64,000 bases of DNA, from assembly GCA_947492375.1 (NCBI GenBank), contig CANLMI010000001.1, positions 62,001 to 126,000 of the forward strand, written 5' to 3'. Position numbers and translations under genes: made by a program. How positions within the stretch are numbered: position 1 is the stretch's first letter; each line of letters starts with the position of its first letter. The notes below the pieces were generated by a model. That model was not told the DNA's origin. It saw only the letters and a list, made by a program, of their open reading frames with translations, and did no database searches. Origin of the DNA: an uncultured Kordiimonas sp. (GTDB lineage Bacteria; Pseudomonadota; Alphaproteobacteria; Sphingomonadales; Kordiimonadaceae). Positions 6,150 through 48,090 of this stretch are shown one piece after another.

Positions 6150-6203
6150 TTTTTGCATAGTTTTTTAATTATGTTATGCTCTCTCAGGCATATTTAAAGT
6201 TAG

Positions 6204-6236
6204 AACAACATCAACTGGATAAGCGTTGATGTTGTT
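6204..6236. terminator. Strong hairpin downstream of the marR/enoyl-CoA hydratase operon
   Basis: AACAACATCAAC (6204-6215) pairs perfectly with GTTGATGTTGTT (6225-6236) across a 9-base loop. It lacks a clean T-run on either strand, so it is a weak terminator at best. It could instead act in the leader of the PAS gene that follows. Confidence 0.4.
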
Positions 6237-6284
6237 TGATCTGCTCTAAATTTGATAATGACCTGGGGGTCGAAGAGAGGTAGA

Positions 6285-7044: not shown

Positions 7045-8517
7045 TTACGGCGCCGCCTTAATTGGATAGCCGAGCGGTGTTCCTGAAGGGCGTGGCTCTA
7101 CAAGTAACCAATAGAGTAAATTATCAATGAATACCTTTGATTGGGTTAAGGCAATGTGTTCGTAGGGTAAGATTACAACACTGTCAAAATCTATCGGTGA
7201 TCTTAAGCGCGGCGTCCAAACCGTATCGTCGCCGTCTGCCCGTTCATCCATTAATGCAGAGTACCGTGGTACAACGCCGTCTCCTGGCGCTGTTTGAGCT
7301 GTTTCGAATTTTCCTTTTTCTGTGTCAAATTCCAAAACGCGATCGGTTGCATCTGCATCGCCTAGAACCATATTAAAGATAAGTCTCTCTGGCGGCGCTG
7401 CGGGTATGTCGAGAGCTTTATTAAAACGCTTTGCGTTCTCCAGGTGTGTTTTCAATGTGTTGCGAACTACTGCTTGCAATTCTTCAGGGTCATCGATTTC
7501 CGGGAATAATCGTTTGAATGTTTTATCCATTTTGGGATTCATTAAACCCCACTGGTGTTTCTCCCATGTTTTAATATCATAGAGAGAGCCAACTGGCGCA
7601 CCACCTTTCATGATTACAGCATTATGCCTGTCACGCGGCATTAATTCATATAGAGAAGCGAAAGAACCAAGCACCGCTTGATTGTAAAATGGCAGCAATG
7701 GCCAGCCATAGTTTTTTCCTTCGACAAGCTCATTTAGTGCCTGCGGAGAGCCAGCGTTTGGCGTGCCTATCAGCACGACACGTTCTACCCCCAAGCTGCC
7801 GGACCAATCCAGATTAGGAGCAGAGCCATCCTTAGGTAACCCCTGATCTCCGTAACGAAGCATATAGCGGGTAAGAAGCCCCCCCATTGAATGGGCGACT
7901 ATATCAACCTTAATATCGGCGTTTTTAATGCCGAATTTGCGCTCATATTCTTTTGAAACCCGCCCCCGGACTTGCTGCACGAAATCAAAGAGTTTGCTTG
8001 CATTATCGGCGTTTGACAGTCGCCAATCATAATCAAACTGATAGGCAGTGTAATGATTGTCGTCATATAGTTCGCCGTTGGCATCGCCTATTTGTTGTTC
8101 ACGGAAACCACCAGCGCCAAGTGCGTCAATAAGCTGTGCGTACGCTGCAACTTTAAGCGGGATGCCCAAAAGTTGTAATTTAACCTCGGTCAACGCGCCG
8201 TTTGGTACAACATGGCTCCAGTTTGTGAGTGAACCATCAGGGTATATATAGGGGGCGGTGATGAGTTTAAGGCCTTTGTCGGTTTGTGGGTCTGCGGCTC
8301 CGGCCACAAACGCGCCCCAAACTGGCTGGTCGGTACGAATGTCCTTTAATTTTGACCCTAGAACACCGGGGATGACGATTACAGGATTTCTGTATGGTGA
8401 TTCAGCGGCAGCAATGCGGTTGTAGGTTAAGGCAATATCAGGGTCTTTCGGGCCGCTGGCACATGCACCAAGGACTGATAGAAGCAAGAATGTAATGAGT
8501 GTTTTTGAAATTTGCAT
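7045..8517 (-). CDS. LCAT-family lipase/acyltransferase lipoprotein
   Basis: The 490-residue protein opens with a lipoprotein signal peptide ending in the lipobox LGAC (Cys19), so it is lipid-anchored outside the inner membrane. It then has the alpha/beta-hydrolase pattern of lecithin:cholesterol acyltransferase-like proteins. The oxyanion region is VIVIPGVLGSKL, followed by YQFDYDWRLSNADN, and the nucleophile elbow is VDIVAHSMGGLL with Ser210. A C-terminal histidine in LPYEHIALT is a good catalytic candidate. It probably hydrolyses or transfers acyl chains on phospholipids or other esters. It appears monocistronic. Confidence 0.85.
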   Translation of the reverse strand: MQISKTLITFLLLSVLGACASGPKDPDIALTYNRIAAAESPYRNPVIVIPGVLGSKLKDIRTDQPVWGAFVAGAADPQTDKGLKLITAPYIYPDGSLTNWSHVVPNGALTEVKLQLLGIPLKVAAYAQLIDALGAGGFREQQIGDANGELYDDNHYTAYQFDYDWRLSNADNASKLFDFVQQVRGRVSKEYERKFGIKNADIKVDIVAHSMGGLLTRYMLRYGDQGLPKDGSAPNLDWSGSLGVERVVLIGTPNAGSPQALNELVEGKNYGWPLLPFYNQAVLGSFASLYELMPRDRHNAVIMKGGAPVGSLYDIKTWEKHQWGLMNPKMDKTFKRLFPEIDDPEELQAVVRNTLKTHLENAKRFNKALDIPAAPPERLIFNMVLGDADATDRVLEFDTEKGKFETAQTAPGDGVVPRYSALMDERADGDDTVWTPRLRSPIDFDSVVILPYEHIALTQSKVFIDNLLYWLLVEPRPSGTPLGYPIKAAP

Positions 8518-8607: not shown

Positions 8608-8712
8608 AAAAAACTGCCTGCACGGAGGGGTGGCCGTGCAGGCTATTCTGATAATTCATGTACACAGTTTGGGGAGGGGCAGGGAGTGTACAATTTGAAT
8701 TATCAGTATTCT
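8608..8712 (-). ncRNA. Candidate trans-acting small RNA with C-rich loops
   Basis: Read on the minus strand, this stretch has a long imperfect stem: CTGATAATTCA (8696-8706 side) against TGAATTATCAG (8648-8658 side), with inner GTGTACA/TGTACAC. The 20-base loop (8666-8685) is C-rich and contains CTCCCTGCCCCTCCCC. A second perfect 10-bp stem, GCCTGCACGG/CCGTGCAGGC (8616-8643), has the loop CCACCCCT and is followed by six Us (8608-8613), an intrinsic terminator. C-rich loops able to pair with Shine-Dalgarno sequences are a hallmark of several alphaproteobacterial small RNAs. The 5' end and promoter were not resolved. The rest of 8518-8938 shows no gene. Confidence 0.5.
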
Positions 8713-8938
8713 TCGTCTTTATACAGGTGATATAATATTTTGGATTTTGTTTACAAGCGATTATGTGATCAAACAAATGTGAAGATGGCTTTCTGTTAAT
8801 CTGTCATTAAAAAATCATACTTGTAGCTAGTGTTGCAATGGCTTATCACGATTGAGAAAATGAGCGCTATGCTTTTAAGGCGAATAATAATTTGCGGGCA
8901 TGGATTAACACTTAGTATTGATAGAACATAGGGTTGTT

Positions 8939-9991
8939 ATGGATAGTATGCTTGCAGAAGAGCGAATGATGGCGCTTGAAAAATTCGTGCAAAAATCAGG
9001 TTGGGGCGAGGCTGAACTATACCCTATGAAAGGCGATGCTTCATTCAGGCGATATACACGCCTTATTATGGATGGGCAAAAAGCGCTTTTGATGGATGCA
9101 CCAAAACCGCAAGAAAATCTCGATGCATATTTGGGTATGACCGCACACCTTAAGTCATTGGGGTGTCGTGTTCCGTCAATTTTCGCCGAAGACCGGGAAG
9201 AGGGCTTTGCCCTTATAGAAGATTTCGGTGAGAGCACTTTTAAAAAATTGCTCGACGAAAGCACGGGGGATGAGACAGAGTTATATTTGAAAGCTGTTGA
9301 TGTTCTGAAGTTTTTGCACAGTCATAATGATGCAACTGCGATTTCTATTCCTTCATACACTATCGATACCATGATCAAAGAGGTTATGTTGCTGGCCGAA
9401 TGGTTCATTCCGAGTGCGCTTGGACAAAAGTTAGCTGATCAAAAATTATTGGAGTTGGAACAGGTTTGGCGGGATGCTCTTGCTGACGTTGCGCAAGACA
9501 CGAGTGTTCTGGTGTTGCGGGATTATTTTGTTGATAATTTAATGCTTGTTGAAGGGCAAAACTCGATTGAAGAATGCGCCCTTCTTGATTATCAGGATGC
9601 ATTAATTGGTTCGCCTGCCTATGATCTTGTTTCGCTGATTGAAGATGCCAGACGTGATATTGATCCGGTGGTAAGAAGAACTGTACTGGCTCATTATTTC
9701 GATGGAAACGACAGTGTAGATCGATTGAAAATGCTTGAAGCTATTAGCATCTTGGGGGCGCAGCGGCATGCCAAAGTTTTAGGTATTTTTACGCGCTTAA
9801 GCGTGCGTGATGACAAACATCAATATTTAGAGCATTTACCAAGGGTACAAAAGCTATTCGCGAGATCGCTCGCATCGCCGAAACTTTCTGCTGTACGTGA
9901 TGCGGTATACGCAGTCCTGCCTAATCTTGGTGATATTGTAATTGAGCGGCCAGAGCCCACGTTTGACGCGCTGAAACCACCTGTTGCCTAA
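8939..9991 (+). CDS. amgK: AmgK-like aminosugar/MurNAc kinase (APH fold)
   Basis: The 350-residue protein has the aminoglycoside-phosphotransferase fold. The ATP-site region is GDASFRRYTRL, the catalytic loop is VLRDYFVDNLMLV, and the metal-binding motif is LLDYQDALIGSPAYDLVSLI followed by EDARRD. This last block is typical of AmgK, which phosphorylates MurNAc and GlcNAc at C1 for peptidoglycan recycling that bypasses early steps. The usual neighbours tsaE and murU are absent here. The ATG at 8939, with AGGG ahead of it, is preferred over a TTG at 8918. Confidence 0.75.
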   Translation: MDSMLAEERMMALEKFVQKSGWGEAELYPMKGDASFRRYTRLIMDGQKALLMDAPKPQENLDAYLGMTAHLKSLGCRVPSIFAEDREEGFALIEDFGESTFKKLLDESTGDETELYLKAVDVLKFLHSHNDATAISIPSYTIDTMIKEVMLLAEWFIPSALGQKLADQKLLELEQVWRDALADVAQDTSVLVLRDYFVDNLMLVEGQNSIEECALLDYQDALIGSPAYDLVSLIEDARRDIDPVVRRTVLAHYFDGNDSVDRLKMLEAISILGAQRHAKVLGIFTRLSVRDDKHQYLEHLPRVQKLFARSLASPKLSAVRDAVYAVLPNLGDIVIERPEPTFDALKPPVA

Positions 9992-10037: not shown

Positions 10038-11210
10038 TTAGTCCGGTAAGGCTGCCCAAATATATTGTTCATATGCATTTAACATATTGCGGAATGCATA
10101 AATGGCAGTTGCTTTATTACAGTTGCTCTTACCAATTGCTGTTGCCATGTCAGGGTTTTCGAATAACAGTTTAAAGTTTCGCGCCAGGGCATTGGGGGAC
10201 GAGCTTGTAATCAAGCTGGCATTTTCGCTGGAAACCATTGTTTGCATATCACCAACGTTCGGCGCAATAATTGGGATACTGGCAGCCATCGCTTCTATCA
10301 CAGAAATTGGCATTTGTTCTGTTTTGGAAGATAAGGCAAATATGTCAAATGTCGGCAGAATTCTCTCTGGTTTTTCAATGGCACCAGTAAAAACAATATG
10401 TTCGTTTAGGTTAAGCGACTTCGTCAATTGATTTAAGTCTGCCATTTCGCTGCCATCACCGACAATGACAAGTTTGACCTGTGTTTTGTCTTTTATGTTT
10501 CGCAGCGGGGCTGATTGGGAAGGATCTAATTCAAGAGTGTCGAGAAATGTTTTGAAAGCATGGATCAGGCCCGTTTGGTTTTTTTCAGGGCGGAGGGCCG
10601 CAACTGTTCCAATGATAAAATCATCCTGTTTAATTCCCCACTTTTTTATCAGGCTTTCATCCGCCGGGTTTTGAAACTGATGGATATCAATGCCATTGGC
10701 TATATGAACTAAATTTTTACTGGGAATACGCCAACTTTTTTGAGCGATTTTATAGAGTAATTTTGATGGAACAATCACTTTATCGCATTGATTATACATT
10801 AACTTGCGTAGAATCTTACGCCAGTTGATTTCTGTATCCTGCTCTTCTTTGGCAAAGCCATCCTGAATATGAAACATGGGGCAAATTGGCAGAAAGCTAT
10901 TTGCAAGGTTCCATTCAATGCTCCCCCAATTATATGTAATCATAAGGTACGGCTTGATATTCTTTAGATGTTTGCGTGCCGCCCGGATAGCACGGTACAT
11001 TGAGTTTTTGGGGAAACATATGTCTTCAGAAAAAACGACTGTATCTGATGATCCAGCCCATAGGGCTTTTGCTTCATAATTTCCGTCAAGGGCGATGATG
11101 GTATGATCAAACTCTTTTAAGCCATTTTTCAAAAGCGAAGCGGTTCTGCGCTGGGCTCCGCCAATTTCAAAAGAAGGAAAAACATGAAGAATATGTGGAC
11201 GATTAGTCAT
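10038..11210 (-). CDS. GT4-type glycosyltransferase
   Basis: This 390-residue protein has a GT-B fold. The N-terminal domain opens HVFPSFEIGGAQRRTASLL, the usual acceptor-side glycine motif. The C-terminal donor domain has VGTVAALRPEKNQTGLIHAF, LVIVGDGSEMADL and the family 4 EX7E-like motif in SSKTEQMPISVIEAMAASI, followed by PNVGDM. It transfers a sugar from a nucleotide donor to a glycan or lipid, probably for surface polysaccharide. It stands alone, so the product is unknown. Confidence 0.85.
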   Translation of the reverse strand: MTNRPHILHVFPSFEIGGAQRRTASLLKNGLKEFDHTIIALDGNYEAKALWAGSSDTVVFSEDICFPKNSMYRAIRAARKHLKNIKPYLMITYNWGSIEWNLANSFLPICPMFHIQDGFAKEEQDTEINWRKILRKLMYNQCDKVIVPSKLLYKIAQKSWRIPSKNLVHIANGIDIHQFQNPADESLIKKWGIKQDDFIIGTVAALRPEKNQTGLIHAFKTFLDTLELDPSQSAPLRNIKDKTQVKLVIVGDGSEMADLNQLTKSLNLNEHIVFTGAIEKPERILPTFDIFALSSKTEQMPISVIEAMAASIPIIAPNVGDMQTMVSSENASLITSSSPNALARNFKLLFENPDMATAIGKSNCNKATAIYAFRNMLNAYEQYIWAALPD

Positions 11211-44531: not shown

Positions 44532-45698
44532 CTATCCGCGCGGTGAGATAGTTTCAATGGATTGAACGCGTTGTCCGGGTGCTAACTTATCAATGCCGTC
44601 TGCAATAATTACATCGCCGGCCTTGATTGTGCCCGAGACGAAAACGCTGTTGCCGTCGCTATATTGTATCTGCACATTTTCAAAGCGTACTTTAGGGCCA
44701 TCAGGTCCTTCGAAAACCTTATATACACGCCATAATCCGCGTACATCAGCGGAGAGGGCGCGGAGCGGCAACCACGCCCCTGAAGTTTCCTGCCAGTCAT
44801 CTACGACAGCATTAATAAGTTCGCCGCGGGATGTGGTATTTGTCGGTAGATCAAAAGACACCATCATCGTACGTGTTGTGCCTGTTATGACTGGAACAAC
44901 GGACCGCATGCGTGCGTTAATAATAGGGCGGCGGGCGCCGTCACGCAGCGCGAACTTGGCACCATTTTTTATGGCTTTGGCATATTCTGGCGGCATGCCG
45001 ATGCGTGCTTCCATCCTGCTATCTTCTGATAATTCAAGGACGGCAAGGCCTGCGTTCGCGATTGTCCCTTCATCGAGCATTCTTGCCGTGATTGTGCCAG
45101 AGAAGGGGGCTGTGATTGATGCGCGTTTAATATCTACATCAAGTGACCGCAAGGATGCATTCAAACGTGCCAGACGTGCTTTGAGCGAAATTGCATTCGC
45201 TTCTGCTTCATCCAGCCGCTGCGCAGAGGCATGACCCTGTTTAAATGTATCGCTGACACGCTTGAGTGTTCTGTTAGCGAGTTCGAGATTAGCTGTAACC
45301 TCATCTTTTTCAGCAAGTAATTCACCGCGGCGCGCGTCCAAAACTGATGTATCCAGTTCTGCAAGTTTATCACCTTTTTTTACAAAGCTACCCATGTCGA
45401 CATAAACAGTTTTTAACGTACCGTTTAGTTCAAAGGCGAGAGGGCTGACGCGGCCAGCTACTGCACGGCCTGTAAATGTACGTTTTGCGTAATACCCATT
45501 TTCCATTTTGATGTTGACCGTGCGCACTGGCAACTCTCTTGTCGTATTGGAGAGAGAGGAGGATTGAGCTGTCAGGCGCACGGTCAGGGGAATACTTATG
45601 GCAGCAATGACCGTAATCAGCCCGATAAGTTTGATGACTTGGGCCTTTCCGGGCTGATTTACCCCGAATACTGATGATACTATTTTTTTGTTTACCAT
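44532..45698 (-). CDS. RND efflux periplasmic adaptor (membrane fusion protein)
   Basis: The 388-residue protein has one N-terminal membrane helix (LIGLITVIAAISIPLTVRLT), a lipoyl/hairpin region (LNGTLKTVYVDMGSFVKKGD, then a long coiled coil around 120-175), a beta-barrel and a membrane-proximal domain. Motifs such as ITAPFSGTITARMLDEGTI are diagnostic. It bridges the permease to an outer-membrane channel. It is transcribed divergently from tetR, with operator-like repeats between. Confidence 0.93.
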   Translation of the reverse strand: MVNKKIVSSVFGVNQPGKAQVIKLIGLITVIAAISIPLTVRLTAQSSSLSNTTRELPVRTVNIKMENGYYAKRTFTGRAVAGRVSPLAFELNGTLKTVYVDMGSFVKKGDKLAELDTSVLDARRGELLAEKDEVTANLELANRTLKRVSDTFKQGHASAQRLDEAEANAISLKARLARLNASLRSLDVDIKRASITAPFSGTITARMLDEGTIANAGLAVLELSEDSRMEARIGMPPEYAKAIKNGAKFALRDGARRPIINARMRSVVPVITGTTRTMMVSFDLPTNTTSRGELINAVVDDWQETSGAWLPLRALSADVRGLWRVYKVFEGPDGPKVRFENVQIQYSDGNSVFVSGTIKAGDVIIADGIDKLAPGQRVQSIETISPRG

Positions 45699-47692: not shown

Positions 47693-48090
47693 GGGCATGC
47701 AGATGGCTGGATGGTCGCCGCTCGAAAGTAGAGGGGAGGAAAGTCCGGGCTTCATGGAAACACGGTGCCAGTTAATGGCTGGCGAGGGTAACCTCAGGGA
47801 AAGTGCCACAGAAAGCAAACCGCCAATCTGGTAGCCTTTGGCTATCGTTGGTAAGGATGAAAGGGTGCGGTAAGAGCGCACCGCGCTTCTGGTAACAGAG
47901 GCGGCAAGGTAAACCCCACCGGAAGCAAAACCAATAGGGATGGTTGCCTTTAATGGCAGGTGCGTTTCCACGCTATCGTCCGGGTAGGTTGCTTGAGCTT
48001 GCTGGCAACAGTAAGTCTAGATGAATGATCATCAATGCGTTTGAATGGAAGCGTTGAACAGGACCCGGCTTATAGGCCATCTGCCCTAAT
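47693..48090 (+). ncRNA. rnpB: RNase P RNA (bacterial type A)
   Basis: The conserved core is unmistakable: GAGGAAAGTCCGGGC near the 5' end, AGTGCCACAGAAA, GGTAAACCCCACCGG and the 3' CCCGGCTTATAGGCC. The terminal helix P1 is formed by GCAGATGGC (47699-47707) and GCCATCTGC (48076-48084). It is the catalytic RNA that removes tRNA 5' leaders, with the RnpA protein encoded elsewhere. Weak TTCAAC (47658) and TAATGC (47681) elements could be its promoter, 17 bases apart. Ends are estimated from P1. Confidence 0.95.

Follow-up and report, generated by a model that had tools for sequence, protein, structure and literature searches.

The window analysed here is a 64-kb stretch of Kordiimonas DNA, and the candidate sRNA sits in the 433 bp that separate an LCAT-like lipase gene on the minus strand from a divergent AmgK-like kinase gene on the plus strand. 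The features of the locus are given below, where "sister" denotes the other genome of the genus.

7045-8517, minus strand: LCAT-like lipase, the downstream neighbour (Pfam LCAT, E 4.5e-14)
8608-8613, minus strand: UUUUUU tract of the intrinsic terminator, read from the sequence; UUUUU in sister
8608-8722, minus strand: predicted sRNA of ~115 nt; 5′ end placed from the candidate -10, 3′ end at the U-tract
8616-8643, minus strand: hairpin 2, the terminator stem; loop CCACCCCU at 8626-8633
8624-8630, minus strand: CCCCUCC of loop 2; identical in sister
8648-8706, minus strand: hairpin 1, from the fold; loop at 8666-8685, reading CUCCCUGCCCCUCCCC(AAACU)
8671-8690, minus strand: core of loop 1, UACACUCCCUGCCCCUCCCC; 20/20 identical in sister
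8729-8734, minus strand: candidate -10 TATATC, predicted; CATATC in sister
8751-8756, minus strand: candidate -35 TTGTAA, a weak match to consensus; TTGAAC in sister
8768-8782, minus strand: candidate CenR box TCACATTTGTTTGAT, binding predicted; identical in sister
8951-9991, plus strand: AmgK-like N-acetylmuramate kinase, the divergent neighbour (Pfam APH, E 3.8e-24)

The kinase matches the NCBIfam AmgK model with an E-value of 9.7e-59, which lies under that model's curated cut-off. The start codon of the lipase (8517) is found ~90 nt past the sRNA terminator. The 433-bp gap is too small for a further gene, and the next minus-strand gene past the kinase is located at 10038-11210. Because the kinase gene intervenes on the opposite strand, the terminator ends no upstream minus-strand gene; it would therefore close its own short transcript or else a lipase leader subject to attenuation. 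The window also encodes MraY, for which the best plasmid-borne matches are in Tistrella, Methylobacterium, Shinella, and Sphingomonas, in keeping with an alphaproteobacterial origin.

Read on the minus strand from 8706 to 8608, the sequence folds into hairpins 1 and 2 in series, with AG and UUUUUU after the second stem. Two stable minus-strand stem-loops with C-rich loops and six Us had been reported in the preliminary description, and sequence and fold place all of them where it had put them. The minimum free energy of a 121-nt stretch was −41.7 kcal/mol compared to −16.1 ± 2.7 in dinucleotide shuffles (z −9.4), and 0 of 200 shuffles was as low. When all 120-nt stretches on both strands of the window were ranked for anomalous stability with correction for GC, the sRNA stretch came first, and four others of the top-ranked stretches reached z values of −3.7 to −5.1 only. 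On the plus strand, the sRNA stretch folds with a z of −5.2 and carries no U-tract. A terminator scan revealed a single site in the region, corresponding to hairpin 2 and the U-tract, with 0.3 expected. The motif CCCCTCC occurs just twice on the minus strand of the window, in loops 1 and 2. The copy in loop 1 is predicted to be 99-100% unpaired in both species, and the final two to three bases of the copy in loop 2 fall within the stem. A 56-aa frame with a TTG start is present at the sRNA stretch, yet loop 1 carries a 2-nt indel between the two species, which disfavours a shared coding frame and agrees with the earlier view that no protein reading is plausible here. Elsewhere in the window, a long near-perfect inverted repeat (GACCGUGCGCxCUGGCA...; z −4.6) is seen at 45511-45630 on the plus strand, immediately beyond the 3′ end or the start of adjacent ORFs, and a strong hairpin region (z −5.1) at 6151-6270 on the plus strand directly follows an enoyl-CoA hydratase-like ORF, where it may represent a terminator or another structured RNA.

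A DNA search of 60 related genomes gave a match in one only, the other genome of the genus (L002, 1497-1606, minus strand; 79% identity, E 7e-22). The sister copy is syntenic, lying between the lipase and amgK orthologues, and its RNA folds with a z of −7.9. Alignment of the two species showed that UACACUCCCUGCCCCUCCCC is identical at 20 of 20 bases and the CCCCUCC of loop 2 at 7 of 7, while stem 1 differs by three compensatory double changes and two one-sided changes with no broken pair; this covariation is drawn from two sequences and three pairs. Compensatory stem changes with unaltered loops, for which the preliminary description had proposed a search of related genomes, are present, and stems and loops are kept in this one congener. 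The DNA from the terminator to the lipase start can barely be aligned between the species. Since the loops are fixed while the stem drifts, the loops would be the working parts. Watson-Crick compensation by itself separates neither RNA hairpins from DNA hairpins nor one strand from the other; a minus-strand RNA is favoured because the U-tract, found on the minus strand only, is kept in both species and because the minus-strand fold is much stronger.

Conservation did not extend to any other genus searched. The 28 other genomes of the family yielded no credible copy, and the element is absent upstream of lipase homologues (72-78% identity) from the family's other genera; likewise, amgK homologues in other genera have no syntenic copy upstream. 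We built a covariance model from the two sequences and ran it on samples of the order (299 genomes) and the class (385); all it matched outside the genus were terminator-like structures that lack the C-rich first loop. None of 84,980 species genomes contains the exact 19-mer of loop 1, although this collection may omit records very close to the window, and the 19-mer was found in neither viral contigs nor plasmids. A search for the loop pattern in 101 relatives returned four matches outside the genus, all of them within long open frames or unrelated folds. In another family of the class (L133, 1501-1599, minus strand), a terminator GCCUGCAAGG...CCUUGCAGGC with the loop ACACCCC resembles hairpin 2 and was taken as a chance likeness. 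A scan against the covariance models of Rfam 15, which the preliminary description had proposed, returned no family for either species at or above the gathering threshold, and no credible family at loose thresholds, where only sub-threshold chance matches appeared. The sole match in the window at the gathering threshold is the class A RNase P RNA (47699-48088, plus strand; bit score 310.7). By the searches made, the candidate sRNA is single-copy and, as far as the sequence collections show, restricted to the genus.

Upstream of the predicted sRNA, the candidate -35 and -10 are spaced by 16 nt in both species and lie at the same distance from it; both hexamers match the consensus weakly, and a promoter scan reported neither. 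The candidate CenR box is found 11 nt upstream of the candidate -35, is co-directional with the sRNA, and is pseudo-palindromic, reading TCAAACAAATGTGAA at 8769-8783 on the plus strand. The 15-mer TCACATTTGTTTGAT has exactly two copies in each genome of the genus, the second between ribA and a response regulator gene (L116 and L113, near 1500), and these second copies are orthologous in the two genomes, which is the position expected of autoregulation. Using a weight matrix built from 31 published R. sphaeroides CenR sites, we obtained a score of 15.35 for the box, in the upper part of the training range and ranking 3 of 127,972 window positions with a matrix whose training genome is GC-rich. 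The top match to this matrix in the window (39984, minus strand) falls within a coding sequence and was not considered further. In other genera, the best-scoring CenR-like site ahead of amgK reached 12.3, and none was convincing.

The response regulator beside ribA shares 63.6% identity, across 97% of its length, with the product of a Cereibacter azotoformans gene, and ribA and the exodeoxyribonuclease III gene (xth) are neighbours of both. Directly upstream of the Cereibacter gene we found ACACGAGCGCGTGAG with zero mismatches, which is the site published for cenR (RSP_0847), an autoregulated gene of Rhodobacter sphaeroides (PMC9275681). The phosphorylated Asp is residue 56 in the Cereibacter protein and in R. 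sphaeroides CenR, and residue 55 in the Kordiimonas protein. The identity, the shared ribA and xth neighbours, the published site upstream of the Cereibacter gene, and the Asp position together identify the regulator as CenR. Published CenR sites are found immediately ahead of the -35 and are mostly oriented along transcription, and the published CenKR regulon includes cenR itself and the putative aminoglycoside phosphotransferase gene RSP_1465 (PMC9275681), which may or may not be an amgK. On the amgK side, a conserved ATCATACTTGT block at 8816-8821 on the plus strand, 33-34 nt from the box, is possibly the -10 region of amgK. The pseudo-palindromic symmetry makes the box fit the direction of amgK as well. 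The distance from the box to the -10-like CATACT on this side is 33-34 nt versus 32 nt from the box to CTATAT at cenR, a spacing that resembles the cenR promoter, and the candidate box could serve amgK alone. The box may thus serve the sRNA, amgK, or both. We know of no sRNA reported in the CenKR regulon; the term "sRNA" is absent from the text of the paper describing that regulon (PMC9275681). The proposed link to CenR is the new part of the picture.

The main rival explanation is that the element forms a cis-acting leader of the lipase gene, transcribed from the same promoter, attenuated at the terminator ~90 nt before the start codon, and passed by regulated read-through. Such a leader would share the strand of the lipase and have its terminator 90 nt upstream of the ORF, and synteny is seen in both species. 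However, no antiterminator was found: the prefix still folds into hairpin 1, and upstream sequence can form with the terminator arm a helix of at most 6-7 bp including G-U pairs, versus an intact stem 1. Homologues of the lipase with 72-78% identity in other genera also lack a leader of this kind, conservation is poor in the stretch from the terminator to the start codon, and the exposed and invariant C-rich loops would be left without a role. We consider a lipase leader unlikely. Transcription in the other direction, which would make the element part of the amgK 5′ leader with G-rich, GGA-bearing loops acting for example as a protein-binding or sponge element, appears very improbable. Only the minus strand forms the U-tract and terminator, its fold is far stronger (z −9.4 versus −5.2), and such a leader would need to start in the lipase promoter region, even though the plus-strand fold is significant in its own right, its loops would present GGGGAGGGG and GGAGGGG, and Watson-Crick compensation is blind to strand.

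It is also very unlikely that the element acts at the DNA level, as binding palindromes or as a transcription barrier between the divergent genes, with no regulatory RNA. The palindromic arms are perfect, a terminator can insulate divergent promoters, and pairing in RNA and in DNA leaves an identical compensatory signal; but proteins that bind palindromes would fix the arms, whereas here the loop is conserved and the arms change by compensation. A transcript with no function in trans, a stable by-product of divergent promoter activity, would be compatible with an occurrence in one genus and with targets that are putative. We regard this as extremely improbable, given that the loop bases are identical at 20/20 and 7/7 positions while the surrounding intergenic DNA diverges. 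The sRNA reading of the two-hairpin element is probable, and we consider it likely that the minus strand of this locus encodes a ~115-nt trans-acting anti-Shine-Dalgarno sRNA, probably tied to the CenKR envelope regulon.

The type of sRNA suggested by the preliminary description, with loops complementary to Shine-Dalgarno sequences, is borne out by the structure, the stand-alone terminator, and the identical loops over a covarying stem. The kinship with cuckoo and alpha-r RNAs that it had also proposed is not: there is no Rfam match, neither the cuckoo loop CCUCCUCCC (on either strand) nor the alpha-R8 core UUUCCUCCCU occurs in the window, the element is single-copy by the searches made, and its neighbours are others. 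What the candidate shares with these groups is a working principle. In the cuckoo RNAs (CcsR, SmelA075/SmelA099; PMC3927594, PMC10253847), as in the candidate, the hairpin loops repeat an anti-Shine-Dalgarno motif while the stems vary; however, their loop motif is CCUCCUCCC rather than CCCCUCC, they are often, though not obligatorily, linked to DUF1127 genes (CIN1 locus) instead of being flanked by LCAT-like and AmgK-like genes, and R. sphaeroides carries four tandem copies as opposed to the one copy here between lipase and amgK. The alpha-R8 RNAs (SisA-D, MmgR; PMC12559287) are likewise alphaproteobacterial and combine a terminator with an anti-Shine-Dalgarno stretch, but their core UUUCCUCCCU is single-stranded and follows a weak hairpin, whereas the motif here lies in the loops of strong hairpins, and most copies adjoin an N-formylglutamate amidohydrolase gene, unlike the present one. 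GsrN of Caulobacter (PMC5869019) resembles the candidate by description, being ~100 nt long with an exposed C-rich loop; it binds G-rich mRNA sites and is stabilised by Hfq, but requires SigT, the general stress sigma factor, and needs only its 5′ loop. The nearest parallel in logic is ChvR of Caulobacter crescentus (PMC6237742), a single sRNA with a very narrow species range that is controlled by the envelope-related two-component system ChvIG and uses two stem-loops on its target, one TonB-dependent receptor; in our case the regulator would be CenR and the targets are predicted. Anti-Shine-Dalgarno sRNAs thus seem to have arisen time and again in alphaproteobacteria without being related in sequence.

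In the mechanism that we infer, the minus strand would be transcribed from near 8722 and transcription would end at hairpin 2 and the six Us. Stem 1 would serve as a holder whose sequence is free to drift as long as pairing holds, and the two exposed CCCCUCC loops would base-pair with target mRNAs at their G-rich ribosome-binding sites (core GGAGGGG), preventing the start of translation, probably with the help of Hfq, which is encoded in both genus genomes. The CenR box suggests that the sRNA would belong to the CenK-CenR cell-envelope regulon. Of the working models, blocking of translation through such loop pairing is the best supported, as with cuckoo RNAs, GsrN, and SisA (PMC3927594, PMC5869019, PMC12559287). 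The full chain, in which CenR switches on the sRNA and the two CCCCUCC loops repress translation of a set of mRNAs, is put forward here as a tentative and somewhat doubtful proposal. If true, the CenKR envelope system, which is essential in Caulobacter and Rhodobacter, would gain a post-transcriptional repressing arm comparable to the sRNAs of sigma-E or ChvIG. The locus in any case adds a well-supported sRNA candidate for a poorly studied alphaproteobacterial genus.

The search for predicted targets centred on GGAGGGG, the complement of CCCCUCC and a strong ribosome-binding site. When the two genus genomes were searched for long, near-perfect complements of loop 1, matches stayed at chance level, and no 16S rRNA was found by Rfam search of the two assemblies. 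GGAGGGG is located 3-9 nt before an ATG at 25 and 19 places in the two genomes, compared to 16 and 5 for the reversed control. A TonB-dependent receptor gene of the window's genome (G000 C2:302401; L082 near 1501, plus strand) has GGAGGGG before its ATG, and its orthologue was not among the sister matches. In two orthologous pairs, encoding an acyl-CoA dehydrogenase and a CpaB-like protein, GGAGGGG before the ATG is kept in both species. These two sites, which may reflect ordinary conservation of ribosome-binding sites only, are taken as leads, and the loop duplexes predicted there are of about −17 to −20 kcal/mol.
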